IMG/VR virus record: IMGVR_UViG_3300042884_000575
Coordinates: 1 to 28,286 of that record
DNA length: 28,286 nucleotides
Strand: one strand, 5' to 3'
Source of the DNA: a virus
Below are positions 1 to 27,783 of this stretch, one piece after another (positions within the stretch are counted from its first letter, which is position 1; each line of letters opens with the position of its first letter). Under the pieces are notes generated by a model that worked only from the letters and a program-made list of their open reading frames with translations, made no database searches and was not told the DNA's origin. Made by a program: the position numbers and the translations under genes.

Positions 1-430
1 GGCGCTGAAGGCTCGACAGAATAGCGGCCTCGGCCTCGGGCCGCAGGATGCCAGCGGCGGGCGATGCAAGTATCGCGAACAGCGTTATCGCGGTGATCCG
101 TTCCGCCTCATGCGTGGCGTCAAGCTGCGGCGCGTCAGTCCGATTGAACAGTTCCACGGCCTGCCGCGCGACATTGTGCGCCACATGGCCCGGCGTCGAA
201 GCCGCGTCCAGAAGGGCTATCATCGCCGTCTTCGGGTCTGCCGCGCTTACCTGCGCCTGGTCCGGGGCCAGCGTGTTGCGGAACACCTTCGCAATATCTT
301 TGAAGGGCACAACGCCCCAGGTCAGCAAGGCCGCGTCCGGCGCATTAAGCGCGGCGGCAACATCCCGCTCTGCCATTCCGGCGAACTGCGCCACCTTCGC
401 CGCAATCTTCTGTTCGCGCTCCGCCGTCAT
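1..430 (-). CDS. Hypothetical protein, 3' end outside the window
   Basis: An open frame starts at the ATG complementary to 428-430 and runs to the window start without a stop, giving about 143 visible residues (MTAEREQKIAAKV...). Its ATG overlaps the TGA of the upstream membrane-protein gene in an ATGA junction, the same coupling used throughout this operon, which supports both the start and its reality. The visible part is Ala-rich, largely helical and soluble, with no signal peptide or membrane segment. I do not recognise the family. Its place at the distal end of the late operon, after the lysis genes, suggests an accessory late protein, but no function can be assigned. Confidence 0.7.
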   Translation of the reverse strand, partial: MTAEREQKIAAKVAQFAGMAERDVAAALNAPDAALLTWGVVPFKDIAKVFRNTLAPDQAQVSAADPKTAMIALLDAASTPGHVAHNVARQAVELFNRTDAPQLDATHEAERITAITLFAILASPAAGILRPEAEAAILSSLQR

Positions 431-873
431 TCATCACCCCCATAGGCCCGCTTCGCACGGGGCCAGACATACAGTACCATGGAGACGATCAAAACAGCAA
501 GCCAGGCGGCACATCCAAGTTCATTGAAGCCCAGCTTGATTTCCGGTCGGAACGTCACCTCATACAGGGACACAAGAGGTCCTGCCGCACCCAAGCCCCA
601 AAAGTAGGTGTCATTTATCGTGTCCCACCTGCGCCAGCCCTGCCGAAGGTATTCGATGACAAAAGCGTAGAAGCCTACCACGGCAAACCACAATGCCCAG
701 CGATAGGGCATTTCACCGTACCTGACCGCCCAGATTGCGCAGATGGCCACGACAACACAAGTACCCATTGCAACATGTGTGCCCTGATTGCCGCCGCCGC
801 CCACAGGATCAGAGTAGAATTTGTCCGGCGTGTTCAGGTCATTCCAGAACGCGCGCATAAGTGACCAAAACAT
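427..873 (-). CDS. Four-helix integral membrane protein
   Basis: The 148-residue protein has four predicted membrane segments, at about residues 33-50, 58-75, 90-107 and 119-136, and a charged C-terminal tail. A glycine run precedes an NQGTH motif near residues 29-33, and the loop before helix 3 reads WDTINDTYFWGLGA, with Asp84 and Asp88. Such polar loop residues look conserved, but I cannot name the family. It begins one base inside the TAA of the preceding gene (TAATG) and ends in ATGA with the next. Its position a few genes beyond the endolysin makes a lysis or superinfection-related membrane role possible. The 108-residue two-helix protein is the simpler holin candidate. Confidence 0.75.
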   Translation of the reverse strand: MFWSLMRAFWNDLNTPDKFYSDPVGGGGNQGTHVAMGTCVVVAICAIWAVRYGEMPYRWALWFAVVGFYAFVIEYLRQGWRRWDTINDTYFWGLGAAGPLVSLYEVTFRPEIKLGFNELGCAAWLAVLIVSMVLYVWPRAKRAYGGDE

Positions 874-2827: not shown

Positions 2828-4462
2828 TTATATCTCCGCATCTGCTGACCAGTTAATGAAACAATATCCACCATTGGCGGTTGCAAATCCATTGAAGCCA
2901 ATAGAGCTATGGCTAACATTTTGTGGTGCAATAGAACCTGTATTAAAATTTCCATTAAACCCTAAGTTTGTTGCAATAGTTGGTCCCACTCGCTTGGGCA
3001 CTGAGAATTGGCCACCAACGGCCGCTGTTCCAACAGAGGGACTTTGCAGAAGAAAAATCCCGGTTTCGTAATATCGTTGGCACATTGCCAATTCTGTTCC
3101 CACATCACGAGGAACATAAAGCGCAGCATCTGCCGCAGTCCATACGCCGGGGCGAATGTGGATACCAAAAAGATCAACTTCGATTGTTTGAAGCCCGATA
3201 CTTGCTGCCCTCGCGGAAAACGTCGAACCAGCTGACGTCCAGAATTGCAAGCCTAAAAAGCTGTTGCCGGTAGTGCCGAGTGTTTTTCCAGCTATTGACG
3301 GAACATTGATGGTGACAGCAAAAGGCGTCCATGCGCCCGTCAGTGTAATTTGCGAAGAGCCAATTCCAGTCACTTCTGCCGAGGGGCTACCACCAGAGCC
3401 AAAGTTTTGAACGACTTCGATTGCTACGTTTCCGGTTCCACTGTTGCGCTTAGCCCAACCCAAGACTGTAATGGTCTGCCCGGCATAGGTACGCACGTCC
3501 TCAATACGTTGTGTAGTGGCGGCAAAGTGCGTTGAAAGGCTCTGCCCCGTTACATCTTGTCGCAAGAAAAAGGCCGGACAACTCGCGCCAAATATAGTTC
3601 CGGCCGGGTGGTTCTGCCGACTTTGCGTGATCGTGCCGCCTCCGAAAAAATTTGCCCAACGATCAGCGGCAACGTATCCATTGCCGGTCCCGAACGTTGC
3701 ACGCTGCCAGACGCTAAAATCACCGTTTATGATGCGATCTTGCCCAACTTGCGAGTCTGCAATACCAAGCGCTATTCTTGCAGCTGTCTTATCTACGGCT
3801 TTGAATACGCCATTACCAATAGCTGTTCCACCCAGATTAGCTAACGCTGCCGTCTTATTTGCGAGGTCATTTAAGTTTTGCGAAGACAACATGTCTCCTG
3901 TACCGACGCCGGAGGCCCCACGCTGAACATAGATGCTCCACCGTCCCGCCGACAAGTCGGTAGTAAAAACTCCAGAAACGTGTGCCAAAATACACTGGTA
4001 CCCGTTCCCAGATACCGGTTCAAAAATACGATCACCTACAACGTAGGCCTGCGCAGTCGACCAAGGCCCTAAAAATTCTCCAATCAAATCAACTTCACTC
4101 GGCGCTGCGACAAGCAAAAGTTCTTGCATAAGCATAGTAAGTTTGTCCCAAACAAACTCAGCTACTGCCGGATCGTAACGTGTTTGCGCGCTTACAGAAA
4201 CTTCTTGTGTAACATCTGTCTCACGCGCAATAAGCAGGCGAACACCGGCCAAGGGCGCAGGCGTGATGGTGACTAGCCCACCCACTCCGTTTGAGTTTAT
4301 CGCGGTAGTATAGGTTCCAGGTGTTAGAGGTATCTTAACCCCACTAACCACACTGTAAACTTTAACGCTCGCGGCTGTTTGAACTCGGAACGGAAAGTCA
4401 AAGACTTGTGTAGCACCATTGCCGAAGCGAGTAGCTGTAGACGTAGTTACTTCAACAGTCAT
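2828..4462 (-). CDS. Tail fibre with T7 gp17-like N-terminal attachment domain
   Basis: The 544-residue receptor-binding fibre has a modular layout. Residues 1-125 match the T7 tail-fibre N-terminal domain that docks to the tail tube: FPFRVQTAASVKVYS, TPGTYTTAINSNGVGG, then YDPAVAEFVWDKLTMLMQEL. Residues 130-180 form a small carbohydrate-binding-like linker (AYVVGDRIFEP...GYQCI). Residues 196-240 are a fibre-type repeat. From about 245, the INGDFSVWQR motif and ADRW (267-270) start a beta-sandwich adhesion domain, with an ELAMCQRYYE motif near its end. Host specificity presumably resides in the C-terminal half. The start forms an ATGA overlap with the ejection-protein gene, as in the T7 gp16-gp17 order. 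Confidence 0.9.
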   Translation of the reverse strand: MTVEVTTSTATRFGNGATQVFDFPFRVQTAASVKVYSVVSGVKIPLTPGTYTTAINSNGVGGLVTITPAPLAGVRLLIARETDVTQEVSVSAQTRYDPAVAEFVWDKLTMLMQELLLVAAPSEVDLIGEFLGPWSTAQAYVVGDRIFEPVSGNGYQCILAHVSGVFTTDLSAGRWSIYVQRGASGVGTGDMLSSQNLNDLANKTAALANLGGTAIGNGVFKAVDKTAARIALGIADSQVGQDRIINGDFSVWQRATFGTGNGYVAADRWANFFGGGTITQSRQNHPAGTIFGASCPAFFLRQDVTGQSLSTHFAATTQRIEDVRTYAGQTITVLGWAKRNSGTGNVAIEVVQNFGSGGSPSAEVTGIGSSQITLTGAWTPFAVTINVPSIAGKTLGTTGNSFLGLQFWTSAGSTFSARAASIGLQTIEVDLFGIHIRPGVWTAADAALYVPRDVGTELAMCQRYYETGIFLLQSPSVGTAAVGGQFSVPKRVGPTIATNLGFNGNFNTGSIAPQNVSHSSIGFNGFATANGGYCFINWSADAEI

Positions 4463-23556: not shown

Positions 23557-23726
23557 AGCGAAAGGGGGTCCGCCGTGGGGCTTAGAGTCGCCCGGTCTGG
23601 CGCTGGTGGCCAGTGTCATCGCGCACAGCGCCGAACAAAAATCGACAAACCGGGAATGAAATATTGTGATCTGGTGTTGACAAACCTGCAGGCTGGCCCC
23701 ACCTTTGGCGTGCCGATTGACGGCGG

Positions 23727-23740
23727 GGGCGATAATGCCC
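23727..23740 (+). other. Leader hairpin before the first rightward gene
   Basis: GGGC and GCCC arms enclose GATAAT, just upstream of the conserved ribosome-binding leader. Position and arm sequence match the hairpins before the later rightward genes. Confidence 0.4.
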
Positions 23741-23746
23741 GATAGT

Positions 23747-23760
23747 TAGGAGTCCAAACT
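23747..23760 (+). promoter_or_regulatory. Conserved GGAGTCC ribosome-binding leader, copy 1
   Basis: TAGGAGTCCAAACT sits directly before the ATG at 23761 and is identical over all 14 bases to copy 3 at 25642. The GGAG core is 8 bases from the ATG. Confidence 0.75.
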
Positions 23761-24402
23761 ATGACGAACACCACCACCACCCGTGAACGCTTTGATGTGA
23801 TGCTGAATGGCGTGCCAGTTTCACACGTCAACGTACCGATGCTGGCCACCAGCGTTGTCATTGAGTCCAATGGTGCAAAGGTTGAATTTGTGCCTGCTGA
23901 TTTGCCTAGCCACATCTTGAACGCTGCGTTGTTCAAGGTGATCAGCGACAAAGTGCTGGACGCGGCTAGCGGTGCTTTGATGGCGACGATCAAGGCAAAG
24001 CTGGGTGACAATGCCCCGCCGCTTTCGGACGATCAGAAAGCAGACTTCAAAACTGCCAATGCCGCGCTGATCACCGAAACCGCCCAAATCATGCTGGACA
24101 AAGCGGTGCGGGCACTGGTTGAAGGCAGCGCATCGTTCAAAGGGACGCCGCGCGACAAGGCAGCTGCCGATCCGCTGTCCGCGCTGATTGACTGGCTTGA
24201 TGACAAGGCCCAGCGCGACCTGCTGAAAGCGCTTATCCCGACAATCGGCACGATCAAGAAAGCACCGGACCGTCTGCCGGTCATCAAGGCTTTCCTTGAG
24301 TCGGATCCGGCGAAACGTGCCAAAGTGGAGGCCATGCGTGACCGCGCTGTCGCCGCCGCGAAAGCGCTTGCGGATGAATATGCCGCGATGATGAACGCAT
24401 AA
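23761..24402 (+). CDS. Hypothetical protein, first rightward gene
   Basis: The 213-residue protein has a short Thr-rich start (MTNTTTTRERFDVML). A beta-strand-rich N-terminal part (about 10-50: VPVSHVNVPMLATSVVIE, KVEFVPADLPSHI) follows, then a long helical remainder. Helices include FKVISDKVLDAASGALMATI, DKAVRALVEGSA and a C-terminal Ala/Lys-rich helix. It has no signal, membrane segment or recognisable catalytic motif. I do not recognise the family. The start is set by the GGAGTCC leader, and the gene is followed by a clear terminator, so it is a single-gene unit. It is separated from the other rightward genes by the 820-bp control region, suggesting separate, perhaps early and strong, expression. 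Confidence 0.8.
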   Translation: MTNTTTTRERFDVMLNGVPVSHVNVPMLATSVVIESNGAKVEFVPADLPSHILNAALFKVISDKVLDAASGALMATIKAKLGDNAPPLSDDQKADFKTANAALITETAQIMLDKAVRALVEGSASFKGTPRDKAAADPLSALIDWLDDKAQRDLLKALIPTIGTIKKAPDRLPVIKAFLESDPAKRAKVEAMRDRAVAAAKALADEYAAMMNA

Positions 24403-24427
24403 CGACCAGTCCATCGCAACAACTAAG

Positions 24428-24453
24428 CCGGGGCAGCAATGCCCCGGTTTTTT
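24428..24453 (+). terminator. Intrinsic terminator
   Basis: A perfect 7-bp GC stem (CCGGGGC / GCCCCGG) with loop AGCAAT is followed by six T. It lies 26 bases after the stop of the first rightward gene and is the clearest terminator in the window. Confidence 0.88.
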
Positions 24454-24674
24454 CATTTCCAGCAGTCCGGTACGGCTGGAACCGTGCCACGCCATGCCGC
24501 ATAGGACGGCGCTAGACCGGCCACGTCGCCGCGCCGGTGTATGGTAGCGCCACGTTCGACATCGCCACCCACGGCCCGCCCACGTACGCCATGGCCCCGC
24601 CGCCACGATCCGCCCCCATGATCCGGCCCGCCGCGCGGCACCATCAGACGCAATCGCCGCCTCCAACCGATAGC

Positions 24675-24730
24675 CGCTACCCCATACCCTCCACCCCATA
24701 CCCGCTACCCCATACCAGTTCCCCCATACG
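24675..24730. repeat. Four tandem 14-bp iteron-like repeats
   Basis: Units at 24675, 24689, 24703 and 24717 read CGCTACCCCATACC, CTCCACCCCATACC, CGCTACCCCATACC and AGTTCCCCCATACG. Units 1 and 3 are identical. The constant core is CCCCATAC. A CCATAACCC follows. Contiguous short direct repeats beside palindromes and an A/T run are a common layout of initiator-binding iterons. Confidence 0.7.
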
Positions 24731-24791
24731 CCATAACCCTGGCATCCCCTGAAATCCGCAATCCAGTCGATTGACCCACCCTCACGTGGTT

Positions 24792-24827
24792 CGTATGGCT
24801 CGTTTCCATCGCGAAAGCAGCCATACG
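24792..24827. repeat. Dyad element, copy B
   Basis: CGTATGGCTCGTTTC and GAAAGCAGCCATACG arms pair at 13 of 15 positions around a 6-base loop. It is the same consensus as copies A and C, with C/G exchanged at the outer pair and retained complementarity, which suggests selection on the dyad. Confidence 0.7.
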
Positions 24828-24858
24828 CGGCCTCGGTTTGTTTTCGTTTTCTTTGAGG

Positions 24859-24878
24859 TTTTTTTTTTTTTTTTTTTT
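24859..24878. repeat. 20-nt poly-T tract
   Basis: There are twenty consecutive T on the plus strand, lying between dyads B and C and followed by AAATTAAAAG. It gives an A/T-rich, easily melted or bent segment inside a GC-rich region. Exact length is prone to sequencing error. Confidence 0.85.
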
Positions 24879-24897
24879 CCAAATTAAAAGTGAGGAC

Positions 24898-24932
24898 GGT
24901 ATGGCTCCTTTCTTCTGGAAACGAGCCATACC
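24898..24932. repeat. Dyad element, copy C
   Basis: GGTATGGCTCCTTTC and GAAACGAGCCATACC arms pair at 14 of 15 positions with a 5-base loop. It is the best-preserved copy. Its first arm equals the intact arm of copy A near the terminase gene. Confidence 0.72.
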
Positions 24933-25081
24933 AACCATGGGGGGTGGGGTCAACGTGCCAAACCGGCCAAAACAGGACATGCCAGGACCATCGCCTATGG
25001 ACTAGCGCCAATGGGGGCATTGCAATGGTATAGCGGCAATGAGGCAGCGGCTATGTCTTTGCGCCAGCTACGCCTGATATA

Positions 25082-25091
25082 CCGCTAGCGG
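25082..25091. repeat. 10-bp palindrome with TACCGC-type flanks
   Basis: CCGCTAGCGG is a perfect palindrome preceded by GATATA. Related motifs GGTATAGCGG (about 25027) and CATACCGCC (about 25110) lie nearby, in opposite orientations, suggesting a second set of binding sites. Confidence 0.4.
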
Positions 25092-25130
25092 CACCGCCTG
25101 CGTTAGGACCATACCGCCTCACCGACCCCC

Positions 25131-25159
25131 TTTACATTGGCGCGAAAATAGTGGATGAT
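25131..25159 (+). promoter_or_regulatory. Weak candidate promoter for the rightward gene cluster
   Basis: TTTACA and GATGAT are separated by 17 bases, upstream of the first gene of the cluster. The -35 matches sigma-70 consensus at five of six positions but the -10 at only four, so this is tentative. Confidence 0.25.
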
Positions 25160-25188
25160 TGTGGCATGGGCGCTTTATGTCCAGCGAC

Positions 25189-25205
25189 GCCGCCTCGTCG
25201 GCGGC
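25189..25205 (+). other. Leader hairpin
   Basis: A 6-bp stem, GCCGCC / GGCGGC, has loop TCGTC and lies 10 bases upstream of the conserved leader. There is no T-run after it. Confidence 0.45.
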
Positions 25206-25214
25206 AATTCTAAA

Positions 25215-25225
25215 TGGAGTCCAAT
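25215..25225 (+). promoter_or_regulatory. Conserved GGAGTCC ribosome-binding leader, copy 2
   Basis: TGGAGTCCAAT lies directly before the ATG at 25226. It is two bases shorter after the core than copy 1. Confidence 0.7.
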
Positions 25226-25390
25226 ATGGAACATAAGCCAGACTACGAAAAGATATACGCGGCGCGTCGCGCGATTGACAAGTTGCAAGCCTGGGAAAAG
25301 CACGAAATGCAGCCGCAGGCTTACCGCGAAACGGAAACGCTGTCCGAAATTTTGCAAGAAGCATTGACCGTAGCCAACAAACAGGAGTGA
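25226..25390 (+). CDS. Small helical hypothetical protein
   Basis: The 54-residue protein starts MEHKPDYEKIYAARRAIDKL. It is predicted to be a helical hairpin with a charged amphipathic pattern and a single Trp at residue 23, without membrane or cysteine motifs. The gene is too short to stand out by length. It is supported by the conserved GGAGTCC leader, sensible codon use and a coupled gene 8 bases downstream. Phage early regions often encode such small host-directed proteins, but no target can be suggested. Confidence 0.65.
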   Translation: MEHKPDYEKIYAARRAIDKLQAWEKHEMQPQAYRETETLSEILQEALTVANKQE

Positions 25391-25398
25391 GACTGCTG

Positions 25399-25542
25399 AT
25401 GTTTGAAGTATATACGTACTTTGGCAGAGTTCTGCGCCGTTTCCATATTGGCGACAGCGAGACGCACCACCAAGCTATGGAACAGGCGCGCATGTTTATA
25501 AAAGGCTACACCGGCAAAGCTTGGTGCAGGCTAAAATTCTGA
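25399..25542 (+). CDS. Very small basic hypothetical protein
   Basis: The 47-residue protein begins MFEVYTYFGRVLRRFHIG and continues as a beta-strand followed by a helix (HQAMEQARMFIKGY). The C-terminus is basic (KAWCRLKF). The ATG follows the stop of the previous ORF by 8 bases. The CAGGAG overlapping that stop serves as a ribosome-binding site, so the two genes are probably coupled. The beta-alpha pattern resembles small phage nucleic-acid-associated proteins, but no family is recognised. Its TGA starts the motif TGACGAAACGCC, repeated exactly at 26332-26343. Confidence 0.6.
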   Translation: MFEVYTYFGRVLRRFHIGDSETHHQAMEQARMFIKGYTGKAWCRLKF

Positions 25543-25551
25543 CGAAACGCC
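25540..25551 (+). repeat. Post-stop repeat TGACGAAACGCC, copy 1
   Basis: These 12 bases begin with the stop codon and are identical to 26332-26343. In the second copy the sequence leads into a clear hairpin; here the following pairing is weak. Confidence 0.45.
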
Positions 25552-25596
25552 TGCGGGGGCATTGATAGTCGCCAACAAGTAGGATTGAGTGCGATG

Positions 25597-25616
25597 CACG
25601 GCCTTGCGGGGCCGTG
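25597..25616 (+). other. Leader hairpin
   Basis: A 7-bp perfect stem, CACGGCC / GGCCGTG, with a 6-base loop lies about 26 bases before the next conserved leader. It has no T-run, so it is a better candidate for mRNA end protection or processing than for termination. Confidence 0.55.
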
Positions 25617-25641
25617 TTACGCTGGCAATCCCGCCATGCAA

Positions 25642-25655
25642 TAGGAGTCCAAACT
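25642..25655 (+). promoter_or_regulatory. Conserved GGAGTCC ribosome-binding leader, copy 3
   Basis: TAGGAGTCCAAACT is identical to copy 1 over 14 bases, although the two genes that follow are unrelated. Confidence 0.75.
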
Positions 25656-25844
25656 ATGAAACTGATGCAAGTAACCATCTCCGTCATCGGATCAAAACAT
25701 GAGGGCATGAACGTCGGGCGCTGTTCGCGGCTGGATGAAGTGCCAAACCTCGTTCAGCAAGCGATTGAGGCAATGAACCTCGATATGGTAGGAGAACTTC
25801 GAGAGTTCCGCGTTGAAGTATTGGCGCAACCGGAGGTGGTGTGA
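25656..25844 (+). CDS. Small hypothetical protein, first of a coupled trio
   Basis: The 62-residue protein runs MKLMQVTISVIGSKHEGMN, then a short helix (LDEVPNLVQQAIEAM), then a beta-strand (REFRVEVLAQPEVV), an alpha/beta ferredoxin-like order too short to classify. A longer open frame extends 14 codons upstream, but the conserved leader fixes the ATG at 25656. Its TGA overlaps the next ATG (TGATG), the first of two such junctions in this trio. Function is unknown. Confidence 0.7.
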   Translation: MKLMQVTISVIGSKHEGMNVGRCSRLDEVPNLVQQAIEAMNLDMVGELREFRVEVLAQPEVV

Positions 25845-26089
25845 TGCAGGTCCACCTTCTCACTATCGTCGATCAGGCCGACTTCGGCGCGCAGCTGCAC
25901 CAGTCGGTGTGGCACAAAGCCAGCGACGCAGAGGCCTTCGCGCTTCGGTTTCGCGCAGAAAAAGTTGCTGCTGAACCTGAATGGTATCAGGAATGGGATC
26001 GCTATGGCGAGGGCATCGCTTACACAATCGTGGAGTATAATGTGCAAGAAACTCGGTCAGGACGCACGGTTATATGGGAGGATTGCTGA
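25844..26089 (+). CDS. Small hypothetical protein, second of a coupled trio
   Basis: The 81-residue protein runs MQVHLLTIVDQADFGAQLH, then a helical segment (DAEAFALRFRAEKVAAE), then an acidic aromatic stretch (WYQEWDRYGEG). It ends in strands reading YTIVEYNVQETRSGRTVIW. The alternation suggests a small alpha/beta domain with an exposed acidic surface, a style seen in phage inhibitor or DNA-mimic proteins, but that is speculation. The start overlaps the previous stop and the stop overlaps the next start (TGATG both times), so the three products are made together. Confidence 0.7.
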   Translation: MQVHLLTIVDQADFGAQLHQSVWHKASDAEAFALRFRAEKVAAEPEWYQEWDRYGEGIAYTIVEYNVQETRSGRTVIWEDC

Positions 26090-26334
26090 TGTTCGGGGCA
26101 AACAACGTCGAGTCATTTGAAATGTGCTGCCAGAATATCATTCGTGATCGCAACCTACCAGCGGTCAACTATGCCGTAGGTTACGCCGAGGCCGGGATCG
26201 GGATGACCGACCCGATTGAGATAAAAGTGCAATGCTTTTACATCCTCAATAACATCCTTGGGTGGCGCGGAGATACCGCCAAGGAAACCCGGACAGAGTT
26301 GAAACGGCTTTCCAAAGGAACCAACTGGAATTGA
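26089..26334 (+). CDS. Small helical hypothetical protein, third of a coupled trio
   Basis: The 81-residue helical protein has two adjacent Cys (residues 13-14) and a third near 49. The C-terminus is basic (RTELKRLSKGTNWN). The start is the ATG in the TGATG junction, with GGGAGG 7 bases before it; an in-frame ATG five codons upstream lies inside the previous gene and is less likely. The middle segment QCFYILNNILGWRGD carries one moderately hydrophobic helix that is too short and polar for a membrane anchor. No family is recognised. Confidence 0.68.
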   Translation: MFGANNVESFEMCCQNIIRDRNLPAVNYAVGYAEAGIGMTDPIEIKVQCFYILNNILGWRGDTAKETRTELKRLSKGTNWN

Positions 26335-26354
26335 CGAAACGCCCACTAGGGCGT
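26332..26354 (+). other. Post-stop repeat copy 2 leading into a hairpin
   Basis: TGACGAAACGCC at 26332-26343 repeats 25540-25551. Within it, ACGCCC pairs with GGGCGT (26349-26354) across an ACTA loop, a 6-bp stem right after the stop codon. Confidence 0.5.
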
Positions 26355-26395
26355 CTGGGAACTTGACATGTTTCCACTGATGAGTCTGTCAAAAC

Positions 26396-26409
26396 ATGGA
26401 GTCTATACT
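26396..26409 (+). promoter_or_regulatory. Conserved GGAGTC ribosome-binding leader, copy 4
   Basis: ATGGAGTCTATACT lies before the ATG at 26410. The core keeps GGAGTC, with T in place of the final C. The segment upstream has TTGACA and TGTCAA facing each other at 26363-26390. Confidence 0.65.
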
Positions 26410-26781
26410 ATGGAAATCTATCTTGGGATTGAGAAAGCATCCGACGATTTGTTTAAAATCGGGAGAAGCATGTTTGTCGAGTCCGACTTTTCGCTTCCAG
26501 CGCACACGATATTCCTTGTCGAGCCCGATCTGAAAATGGCCAGCTGCATTGTAGATGCGTCGCCGTTCGATGAAATAGAACCGCGCTTTCTGACCGAGTT
26601 TATCGGTTCAGTGATGGCCAAAGCCACGCGGGAAATGCGGGCAAAGGCGATCATTGACGCGCTGGAGCAGACAGCCGAGAAAGACACGATGAAGGCGCTG
26701 GCGAGCGAACTCGCCGACTACGATCTGGATAATCTTTCAGAGCATCTTCGCGCCCTCGCCGACGCCATCGACGCCGCCTGA
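26410..26781 (+). CDS. Hypothetical protein
   Basis: The 123-residue protein has an N-terminal beta-rich part (MEIYLGIEKASDDLFKIGRS, then a HTIFLVEPDLKMASCIVD strand pair). A long helical C-terminal half follows (EFIGSVMAKATREMRAKAIIDALEQ, with later acidic helices ending ALADAIDAA). The longest open frame begins 14 codons earlier, but the leader places the ATG at 26410. There is no membrane segment, signal or recognised motif. The gene stands alone between two hairpins, so it forms its own cassette. Confidence 0.72.
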   Translation: MEIYLGIEKASDDLFKIGRSMFVESDFSLPAHTIFLVEPDLKMASCIVDASPFDEIEPRFLTEFIGSVMAKATREMRAKAIIDALEQTAEKDTMKALASELADYDLDNLSEHLRALADAIDAA

Positions 26782-26792
26782 CACATTGCCAG

Positions 26793-26811
26793 CAGCCCTC
26801 ACTTTGGGCTG
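26793..26811 (+). other. Leader hairpin
   Basis: CAGCCC / GGGCTG (6 bp) has a 7-base loop 11 bases after the preceding stop. The arm sequence AGCCC...GGGCT recurs in the hairpins at 27277-27319 and 27792-27810. Confidence 0.55.
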
Positions 26812-26826
26812 TTGTGCCATGTGCCA

Positions 26827-26836
26827 ATACCGGTAT
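26827..26836. repeat. Palindrome ATACCGGTAT
   Basis: A perfect 10-bp palindrome lies between the hairpin and the conserved leader. It shares the ATACC core with the control-region repeats, so it may be another site for the same protein. Confidence 0.35.
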
Positions 26837-26844
26837 GTGAAACT

Positions 26845-26857
26845 AAGGAGTCCTACC
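26845..26857 (+). promoter_or_regulatory. Conserved GGAGTCC ribosome-binding leader, copy 5
   Basis: AAGGAGTCCTACC is directly before the ATG at 26858 and has the strongest match to the anti-Shine-Dalgarno sequence of the set (AAGGAG). Confidence 0.7.
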
Positions 26858-27133
26858 ATGTCCATTATGATCCACCCAGCCATTGTCATAATCGCAGACG
26901 CCCTTTCTGTTTACAGGGCACTGCAGCAAAAAACATTCGCGCAAGCGGCGTTTGACCTCAACAAGCCAGTTGAAGAAATCTACGAGTGGGCCGACATATT
27001 CGGCCTAACCCACGAGGTTGTGCAGGGTCCAGTTAAACCGTTGCATAAACTGATTGGAAGTGGCCCACAGAAGGGCGGCAACTATCGCGCAAACGTCGTC
27101 AGCTTGAAAAGCTTTGAAGGAGCCGCAAAATGA
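26858..27133 (+). CDS. Small hypothetical protein with helix-turn-helix-like pattern
   Basis: The 91-residue protein contains DALSVYRALQQKTFAQAAFDLNKPVEEIYEWADIFG around residues 13-48. A helix, a short turn and a second helix starting after a Lys-Pro-Val pair are reminiscent of an HTH with a recognition helix. The C-terminus is basic and Gly-rich (GPQKGGNYRANVVSLKSF). A DNA-binding regulator is plausible but the fit is by eye only. The frame is open 24 codons further upstream, but the conserved leader sets this start. It ends in an ATGA overlap with a tiny membrane protein. Confidence 0.65.
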   Translation: MSIMIHPAIVIIADALSVYRALQQKTFAQAAFDLNKPVEEIYEWADIFGLTHEVVQGPVKPLHKLIGSGPQKGGNYRANVVSLKSFEGAAK

Positions 27134-27264
27134 CCCCAAGAGAGGTTGTTATCACTTTCGTATCCGGCTGCCTTTTCGGTTTGGCACTGGTCGCCGTAGG
27201 TTACATCGCAACCAAGGCTATCGCTAACGTAGCCTACGAAACCGCGAAGCCCCGCCTTGACTAG
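27130..27264 (+). CDS. Tiny single-helix membrane protein
   Basis: The 44-residue protein has one membrane-spanning segment at about residues 6-29 (VVITFVSGCLFGLALVAVGY), a Thr-Pro-Arg-Glu start and a short polar C-terminal tail (ETAKPRLD). The ATG overlaps the previous TGA (ATGA), which makes the small frame credible. One-helix proteins of this size in phages often act on membrane enzymes, exclusion or lysis timing, but nothing here identifies the target. It is the only membrane protein in the rightward cluster. Confidence 0.62.
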   Translation: MTPREVVITFVSGCLFGLALVAVGYIATKAIANVAYETAKPRLD

Positions 27265-27276
27265 CTTTCAGCGATG

Positions 27277-27319
27277 CGCAGCCCCGTTTCGGTTTAATCG
27301 CCGATAGCGTTGGGCTGCG
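27277..27319 (+). other. Long-loop leader hairpin
   Basis: CGCAGCCC pairs with GGGCTGCG (8 bp) around a 27-base loop. A second small stem (GATGC / GCATC) follows at 27324-27339, before the conserved leader. Confidence 0.5.
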
Positions 27320-27350
27320 TTACGATGCAAGCTCGCATCAGCACCTATGA

Positions 27351-27363
27351 ATGGAGTCCTATC
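27351..27363 (+). promoter_or_regulatory. Conserved GGAGTCC ribosome-binding leader, copy 6
   Basis: ATGGAGTCCTATC lies directly before the ATG at 27364. Confidence 0.7.
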
Positions 27364-27783
27364 ATGTTCGATCAACTCATCGTTGCCGCCGACGACCTTC
27401 GCGAGCGCCTGCTTCGCACAAAGGGATACGATAGCGTGGCAGTCCAATACAACCTTAAAGCAAAGGGCGACGGGCAGTACGAGTACGGTTGCTGGCTGGA
27501 GCTTCGCGATAATTTTCAGCCTGTCTACGGCAACGATAAAGTTGACGTTGGCGACTACTATATTTTCGAAAGCTCGCTGAGCTCTATGCACGAAGAGGTC
27601 GCCGCGACGCTTGCCAAGCTGCGAGGCCGTGAACAGCGCGAATTTACCTTCCTCATGAAGGGTCTAACTGCCAGCGTCGAACACCGTGACATGCTTACCA
27701 CCGCCGCAGGACGTGACTTCGCCGCCGCCCTGCTCGAGGAACGTAACAAGTTCATCCACCTTCTCACCGCCGACCAAAGCTAA
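27364..27783 (+). CDS. Hypothetical protein
   Basis: The 139-residue protein begins with a helix (MFDQLIVAADDLRERLLRTKG). A beta-rich central part follows (DSVAVQYNLKAKGDGQYEYG, then CWLELRD...YYIFESSL), and two C-terminal helices with basic and acidic patches (SSMHEEVAATLAKLRGREQR, RDFAAALLEERNKFIHLL). No family or active-site motif is recognised. An open frame extends 18 codons upstream, but the leader defines the start at 27364. The gene has hairpins on both sides, so it is a single-gene cassette. Confidence 0.75.
   Translation: MFDQLIVAADDLRERLLRTKGYDSVAVQYNLKAKGDGQYEYGCWLELRDNFQPVYGNDKVDVGDYYIFESSLSSMHEEVAATLAKLRGREQREFTFLMKGLTASVEHRDMLTTAAGRDFAAALLEERNKFIHLLTADQS

Follow-up and report, generated by a model that had tools for sequence, protein, structure and literature searches.

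The GGAGTC core before six small genes

Why should six unrelated small genes of one virus carry nearly the same letters in front of their start codons? This question is raised by the IMG/VR viral record IMGVR_UViG_3300042884_000575, which is probably a fragment and which was analysed over its full length of 28,286 bases (the window). Structural genes occupy its minus strand and, from position 23761, its plus strand carries small genes of unknown family; before six of the latter a sequence-only reading had pointed to the hexamer GGAGTC (leaders 1 to 6 in the following, in the order of the genes; Table 1). The answer that we favour, and hold to be fairly probable, is that structured messenger RNA (mRNA) leaders end, on their 3' side, in GGAGTC(C) as the ribosome-binding core, and that two types of leader, one with a small hairpin and one with a type II hammerhead ribozyme, converge on an mRNA that begins with a hairpin.

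All six starts are indeed preceded by GGAGTC, at a spacing of 4-6 nucleotides (nt) from the ATG. The bare hexamer was not enriched in the window (15 copies, 10.4 expected). Enrichment was found for GGAGTCC-N2-6-ATG, with 5 sites, all on the plus strand, against 0.11 expected, and none of 100 shuffles reached 5; copy 4 reads GGAGTCT. The description of the leaders as near-identical holds for the core and its A/T-rich flanks and fails for the 60-100 nt upstream, which differ between the copies, while the identity of copies 1 and 3, put at 14 bases, in fact extends over 18 nt (TAGGAGTCCAAACTATGA). The genes are in essence unrelated, as had been stated, apart from a single weak protein match of 18 residues (E-value 0.02).

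That the core exceeds an ordinary Shine-Dalgarno sequence was borne out, and only some of the genes are marked by it. TC followed GGAG at 29 of 131 sites in the close clade; the corresponding shares were 7/103 for alphaproteobacterial samples and 13/508 for the remaining terminase relatives. Cultured phages reach at most 47% identity in terminase (Pseudomonas phages UFJF_PfDIW6 and AF, epsilon15 group), and nearer relatives were found as viral contigs only; phage AF showed no preference (2/46), and in more distant relatives TC was also frequent (34/185). Within the close clade, TC was present in 12 of the 26 GGAG sites that follow a gap of at least 40 nt versus 7 of the 74 others (p = 1.5e-4, with genes called by a simple script). 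The same holds in the window, where the genes with GGAGTC are those after a gap and the abutting or overlapping genes (about 25400, 25844, 26089 and 27130) are without it. Most close homologs of the first gene (23761) have retained GGAGTC in their leaders, and orthologous first genes keep the same core though their flanks have diverged. The sequence-only reading had named the standard ribosome-binding site of the host as the case that would overturn it. This is not what is seen, because TC is rarer in the alphaproteobacteria and terminase relatives and is tied to leader genes in the close clade, and we rejected it for the sampled alphaproteobacteria and related phages.

Of the recent shuffling that had been proposed as well, duplication of whole leaders found no support and was rejected: the upstream sequences differ, and the core is kept before orthologs with diverged flanks. 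Older exchange of some leaders is possible, because one leader type, the hammerhead described below, precedes unrelated genes in the window and in the relative G004.

A type II hammerhead ribozyme between stop and start

What had been overlooked in the earlier interpretation were structured RNAs, among them a hammerhead ribozyme in leader 4. It scores 28.4 bits with the Rfam model RF02276 (E-value 1.3e-5 for this genome), all parts of the required core are present (CUGANGA and GAAA, A15.1-U16.1 and H17), stems I and III are closed by loops with stem II open, and RNAfold gives the same three-way junction. The upstream stop codon TGA (26332-26334) overlaps stem II, and the ribozyme spans the gap from this stop codon to the ribosome-binding site of gene 26410. 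A second hammerhead in G004 has different, covarying stems and the same loop, and ends at GGAGTCC; the gene behind it is unrelated to gene 26410.

A strict structural search of the DNA gathered for this analysis gave 12 distinct type II hammerheads, versus none in the reversed and none in the complemented sequence. For 10 of the 12, GAAA comes 1-7 nt after the end of an open frame, and a start codon usually lies 20-27 nt past the core; the ribozyme therefore occupies the junction of two cistrons. Hammerheads that end at GGAGTC were found in the window, G004, L339 and L404c. L404 holds three strict type II hammerheads within about 0.7 kb (about 140-860, minus strand), one of them followed by GGAGTC, and in L339 another one is followed by GGAGTCTATC. 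A scan of viral contigs for TTGACAT..CTGATGAG gave mostly random matches, and only structure-filtered ones were retained.

The ribozyme adds a member to a known family, and its position is strikingly regular. With the type II hammerheads described before it shares the full catalytic core, the closed stems I and III, the open stem II, the pseudoknot between loop I and the 3' tail, and a place near small phage genes (RF02276; PMC3088659). It differs in the precise order of stop codon, ribozyme, ribosome-binding site and start, in the GGAGTC end of the four copies named above and in a score under the Rfam gathering threshold. The function of phage hammerheads has been open since their discovery there, and processing of long transcripts was already suggested (PMC3088659). 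The ribozymes found here lie exactly in the space from a stop codon to the ribosome-binding site that comes next, and some share the core with promoter-borne hairpin leaders, so that reporter and decay experiments of a simple kind could test what they do.

No other ribozyme family was found by Rfam in leaders 1-3, 5 and 6. At the stop codon of the gene upstream of leader 3, a fragment with 81% identity over 21 nt to 26332-26352 may tentatively be taken for a decayed ribozyme.

A hairpin with a RAUNNY hexaloop

Leaders 1, 3 and 5 and those of many relatives carry a hairpin of 5 base pairs (bp) with a six-base loop RAUNNY. Among sites drawn from the terminase relatives, hairpins with 4 or more pairs and a six-base loop starting with AAT or GAT, at most 14 nt upstream, were found at 14 of the 83 distinct GGAGTC..ATG sites versus 9 of the 921 other GGAG sites; with loops of 5, 7 or 8 bases none was found among the 83. 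The RAUNNY loop was present in 14 of the 31 leaders of first-gene homologs. Dinucleotide shuffles, 2000 sets in all, gave 0.32 on average and never more than 3. In 24 collected hairpins 96.7% of the cells are paired, all five pairs vary on both sides and slid alignments fail; the 31-leader shuffle test is the fairer one, because pairing was among the grounds for choosing these 24. G-U pairs make up five of the nine non-Watson-Crick cells, which argues for RNA and against a DNA palindrome.

A covariance model (R1) recovered mainly its training sequences, and the few additional placeable matches were GGAGTC leaders again. Rfam gave no family at threshold for the hexaloop leaders, the sole marginal alignment being PrrB_RsmZ over the copy in L306 (21.4 bits versus 44, E-value 0.92). 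As far as a literature search confined to open-access papers goes, the hairpin appears to be a novel RNA motif in the leaders of an uncultured phage clade.

Where a promoter is recognisable, the hairpin agrees in position with the predicted transcript start. TTGAC was seen in 15 of the 29 leaders of first genes, where 2.9 would be expected. Scored promoters give a less distinct picture, 9 against 2.9, with a maximum of 9 in 300 simulated sets. In nine leaders with a recognisable promoter (the set covered up to its last two members) the base of the hairpin lies between -1 and +5 nt from the predicted start. In the window the sole acceptable promoter candidate is the weak one of leader 2 (5 such sites in the window versus 3.0 in shuffles), where the first of two hairpins begins 1 nt past the predicted start. 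RNAfold supports the second of these hairpins and prefers another pairing to the first. Leader 2 resembles the leader of an unrelated gene in G003 (GGCATGGGCGC-N5-TGYCCAGCG plus a hairpin).

Two proposed routes to a hairpin-first messenger

We propose that in the first type of leader a sigma70-like promoter would start the transcript at the base of the RAUNNY hairpin. In the second type, for genes that are consecutive on one transcript, the hammerhead would fill the space from the stop codon to the ribosome-binding site, and its cut would leave an upstream message that ends in a 3'-terminal hairpin (stem III) and a downstream message that starts at stem I itself, with a 5'-hydroxyl. By either route the downstream mRNA would consist of a 5' hairpin, followed shortly by unpaired GGAGUC and the start codon. 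Cleavage in vivo and the real transcript starts are what we infer here from the folds and promoters described above. The most likely role of such leaders would be protection of the 5' end from decay and insulation of translation from upstream sequence, and it is plausible that the shared core makes the gene set a common expression device.

A 5' hairpin can stabilise mRNA and impedes conversion of the 5' end by RppH, with not all mRNAs responding (PMC3997798). Like the ompA-type stabilising stem-loops (PMC3997798), the phage leaders would have a hairpin at or near the 5' end before the ribosome-binding site. They differ in that the hairpin is short, its six-base loop is conserved, the core for ribosome binding is characteristic and the stabilising role is a proposed one. 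The synthetic insulator RiboJ is a hammerhead plus a 23-nt hairpin that normalises 5' ends (PMC7536230). As far as working goes, the phage leader would likewise be a self-cleaving element that evens out the 5' end ahead of the ribosome-binding site; RiboJ is engineered and has a separate hairpin after the ribozyme, whereas in the phage the ribozyme's own stem I would be the 5' hairpin. If it works in this way, the hexaloop hairpin would be a natural counterpart of RiboJ, and the job proposed for the phage ribozymes would be to give each gene its own messenger with a hairpin in front.

More tentatively, the promoter-borne RAUNNY hairpin and the stop-to-start hammerhead might be interchangeable members of one new leader class, sealing the 5' end of each cistron and exposing GGAGUC, which may be read by a dedicated RNA-binding factor. 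Phage hammerheads would then gain a defined role as cistron separators and makers of 5' ends.

Several observations weigh against structured leaders as the common explanation. About half of the first-gene leaders are without the hairpin, and the covariation test taken alone is biased by the choice of its hairpins. The hairpins of leader 2 have no RAUNNY loop and the six-base loop of leader 6 is AAGCUC. The promoters of leaders 1, 3, 5 and 6 are weak or unrecognisable, and the transcript starts are predicted from sequence. The link between GGAGTC and gaps is not significant in distant relatives (p = 0.22), and GGAGTCC also stands before some genes that lack a structured leader (one orthologous gene, in G003 and G004). 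Finally, the hammerhead of the window stays below the Rfam gathering score of 37, which is a curation cut-off and not a structural feature; this threshold seems strict for the clade, because the clear copy in G004 is also missed by the model.

Alternative readings

The alternative that survives best, which we consider rather unlikely, is that GGAGTC is a lineage habit of the ribosome-binding site with no special function, independent of the hairpins and the ribozyme. It would fit the presence of GGAGTC before genes without structured leaders and the hairpin leaders that end in GGAGAC, GGAGCA or AAGGAA rather than GGAGTC, but not the strong association of GGAGTC with gaps (in the close clade) and with the hairpin, or its preservation in orthologous leaders.

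It is likewise unlikely, in our estimate, that an RNA-binding protein, from phage or host, binds the hexaloop hairpins at a site that includes GGAGUC and so acts as a translational switch for the leader genes. Known translational operators also sit just before the ribosome-binding site, and the phage operator hairpins of coat-type or regulatory proteins combine a small hairpin with a conserved loop close to the start codon, much as seen here, where the loop is conserved, the stem is variable and the ribosome-binding site follows after 4-13 nt. However, leader types are mixed in one genome, some GGAGTC genes having a hammerhead or other hairpins instead, and no candidate protein is at hand. The hexaloop also differs from phage operator hairpins in its many copies with different stems, and it is not known to match any of them in loop and stem.

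That the hairpins act as DNA operators, i.e. as inverted repeats across the transcription start for a repressor dimer, we consider improbable. Operators are typically found where these short inverted repeats lie, at +1 of predicted promoters, but the arms vary among copies in one genome (GGGC, TGGC, CATGTGCC), the G-U share given above does not suit DNA, and the loop is asymmetric and always in the sense orientation.

Least probable of all, we rejected a small hairpin formed by GGAGTCC itself (GG-AGU-CC plus flanking pairs) that would hide the ribosome-binding site, since, despite flanks paired by RNAfold in leaders 1 and 6 and the G-U pair retained by GGAGTCT of copy 4, the flanking bases are uncoupled (matching at about 10 of 25 close-clade sites in a hand count, no more than base frequencies predict) and relatives have GGAGTCG or GGAGTCA, which are unable to pair.

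The TC after GGAG is not explained by Shine-Dalgarno pairing, and neither self-pairing nor avoidance of a methylation site accounts for it. GGAGTC was also considered as a GANTC methylation site; GAGTC and GACTC occur near expectation, and avoidance fails to account for the motif. GAATC and GATTC are nearly missing from the window and its close relatives (13 observed versus 343 expected, pooled), which suggests that a restriction or methylation site of the GAWTC type is avoided; the depletion is slight or nil in most other terminase relatives.

Features of the leaders and their surroundings

Table 1. Positions of cores, hairpins, promoter and ribozyme elements in the window
Feature	Position	Strand	Remarks
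GGAGTC core 1	23749..23754	+	before gene 23761-24402, first early gene
GGAGTC core 2	25216..25221	+	before gene 25226-25390
GGAGTC core 3	25644..25649	+	before gene 25656-25844
GGAGTC core 4 (GGAGTCT)	26398..26403	+	before gene 26410-26781
GGAGTC core 5	26847..26852	+	before gene 26858-27133
GGAGTC core 6	27353..27358	+	before gene 27364-27783
RAUNNY hairpin, leader 1 (GGGC-GATAAT-GCCC)	23727..23740	+	R1 match 23726-23754, training sequence
RAUNNY hairpin, leader 3 (TGGC-AATCCC-GCCA)	25623..25636	+	R1 match 25622-25649, 28.2 bits, training sequence
RAUNNY hairpin, leader 5 (CATGTGCC-AATACC-GGTATGTG)	26818..26839	+	three G-U pairs
Sigma70-like promoter, leader 2 (TTTACA-17-GATGAT)	25131..25159	+	9/12 matches; predicted start ~25166
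Two hairpins, leader 2 (TGGGCG-CTTTA-TGTCCA; GCCGCC-TCGTC-GGCGGC)	25167..25205	+	read from sequence
First hairpin, leader 3	25596..25617	+	RNAfold
First hairpin, leader 5 (CAGCAGCCC-N7-GGGCTGTTG)	26790..26814	+	read from sequence
Two hairpins, leader 6 (a long one, then GATGC-AAGCTC-GCATC)	27276..27339	+	z -2.9, 0/200 shuffles fold as well
Possible decayed hammerhead fragment (TGACGAAACGCC..GGGGC)	25540..25560	+	at stop codon of gene upstream of leader 3
Type II hammerhead ribozyme, leader 4	26332..26394	+	Rfam RF02276, strict search, RNAfold
Hammerhead stem II strands	26333-26335 and 26384-26386	+	3 bp, open
Hammerhead GAAA	26336-26339	+	core
Hammerhead stem III	26339-26354	+	6 bp, loop-closed
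Hammerhead predicted cut	26355/26356	+	T26354, C26355
Hammerhead stem I	26356-26376	+	7 bp, loop-closed
Hammerhead CTGATGA	26377-26383	+	core
Hammerhead pseudoknot	TTGACA 26363-26368 with TGTCAA 26387-26392	+	6 bp, loop I to tail after stem II

No homolog of the first gene was found in the cultured phages searched, or in 385 alphaproteobacterial genomes, the latter a weak negative as no positive control gave a signal. Right behind this gene (24425-24450) lies a strong terminator-like hairpin with a T tail.

A scan for GGCAATCCCGCC..GGAGTCC..ATG gave 22 matches, mostly of one homologous leader family on betaproteobacterial contigs, one of them a plasmid. The leader is conserved before one gene family, presumably radC, on several genomes and the plasmid (L360-L381, mainly betaproteobacterial contigs), and had no Rfam match in the contigs scanned. 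We kept this family separate because the search pattern itself required GGAGTCC.

The relative G003 (L089-L091) is a contig of 49,005 bases; its last bases recur near position 3519, so that it probably represents a whole genome, about 45.5 kb long.

The non-coding region 24640-24960 of the window holds 14-bp tandem repeats (CCGCTACCCCATAC), a T tract of about 20 nt and inverted copies of GAGCCATACC, of which the window has 7 with at most one mismatch versus 1.5 expected. This region may be a replication origin. The GAGCCATACC motif surrounds a T tract in G004 too, exact copies occur in many relatives, and a similar non-coding repeat region is present in L093 (4235-4390).

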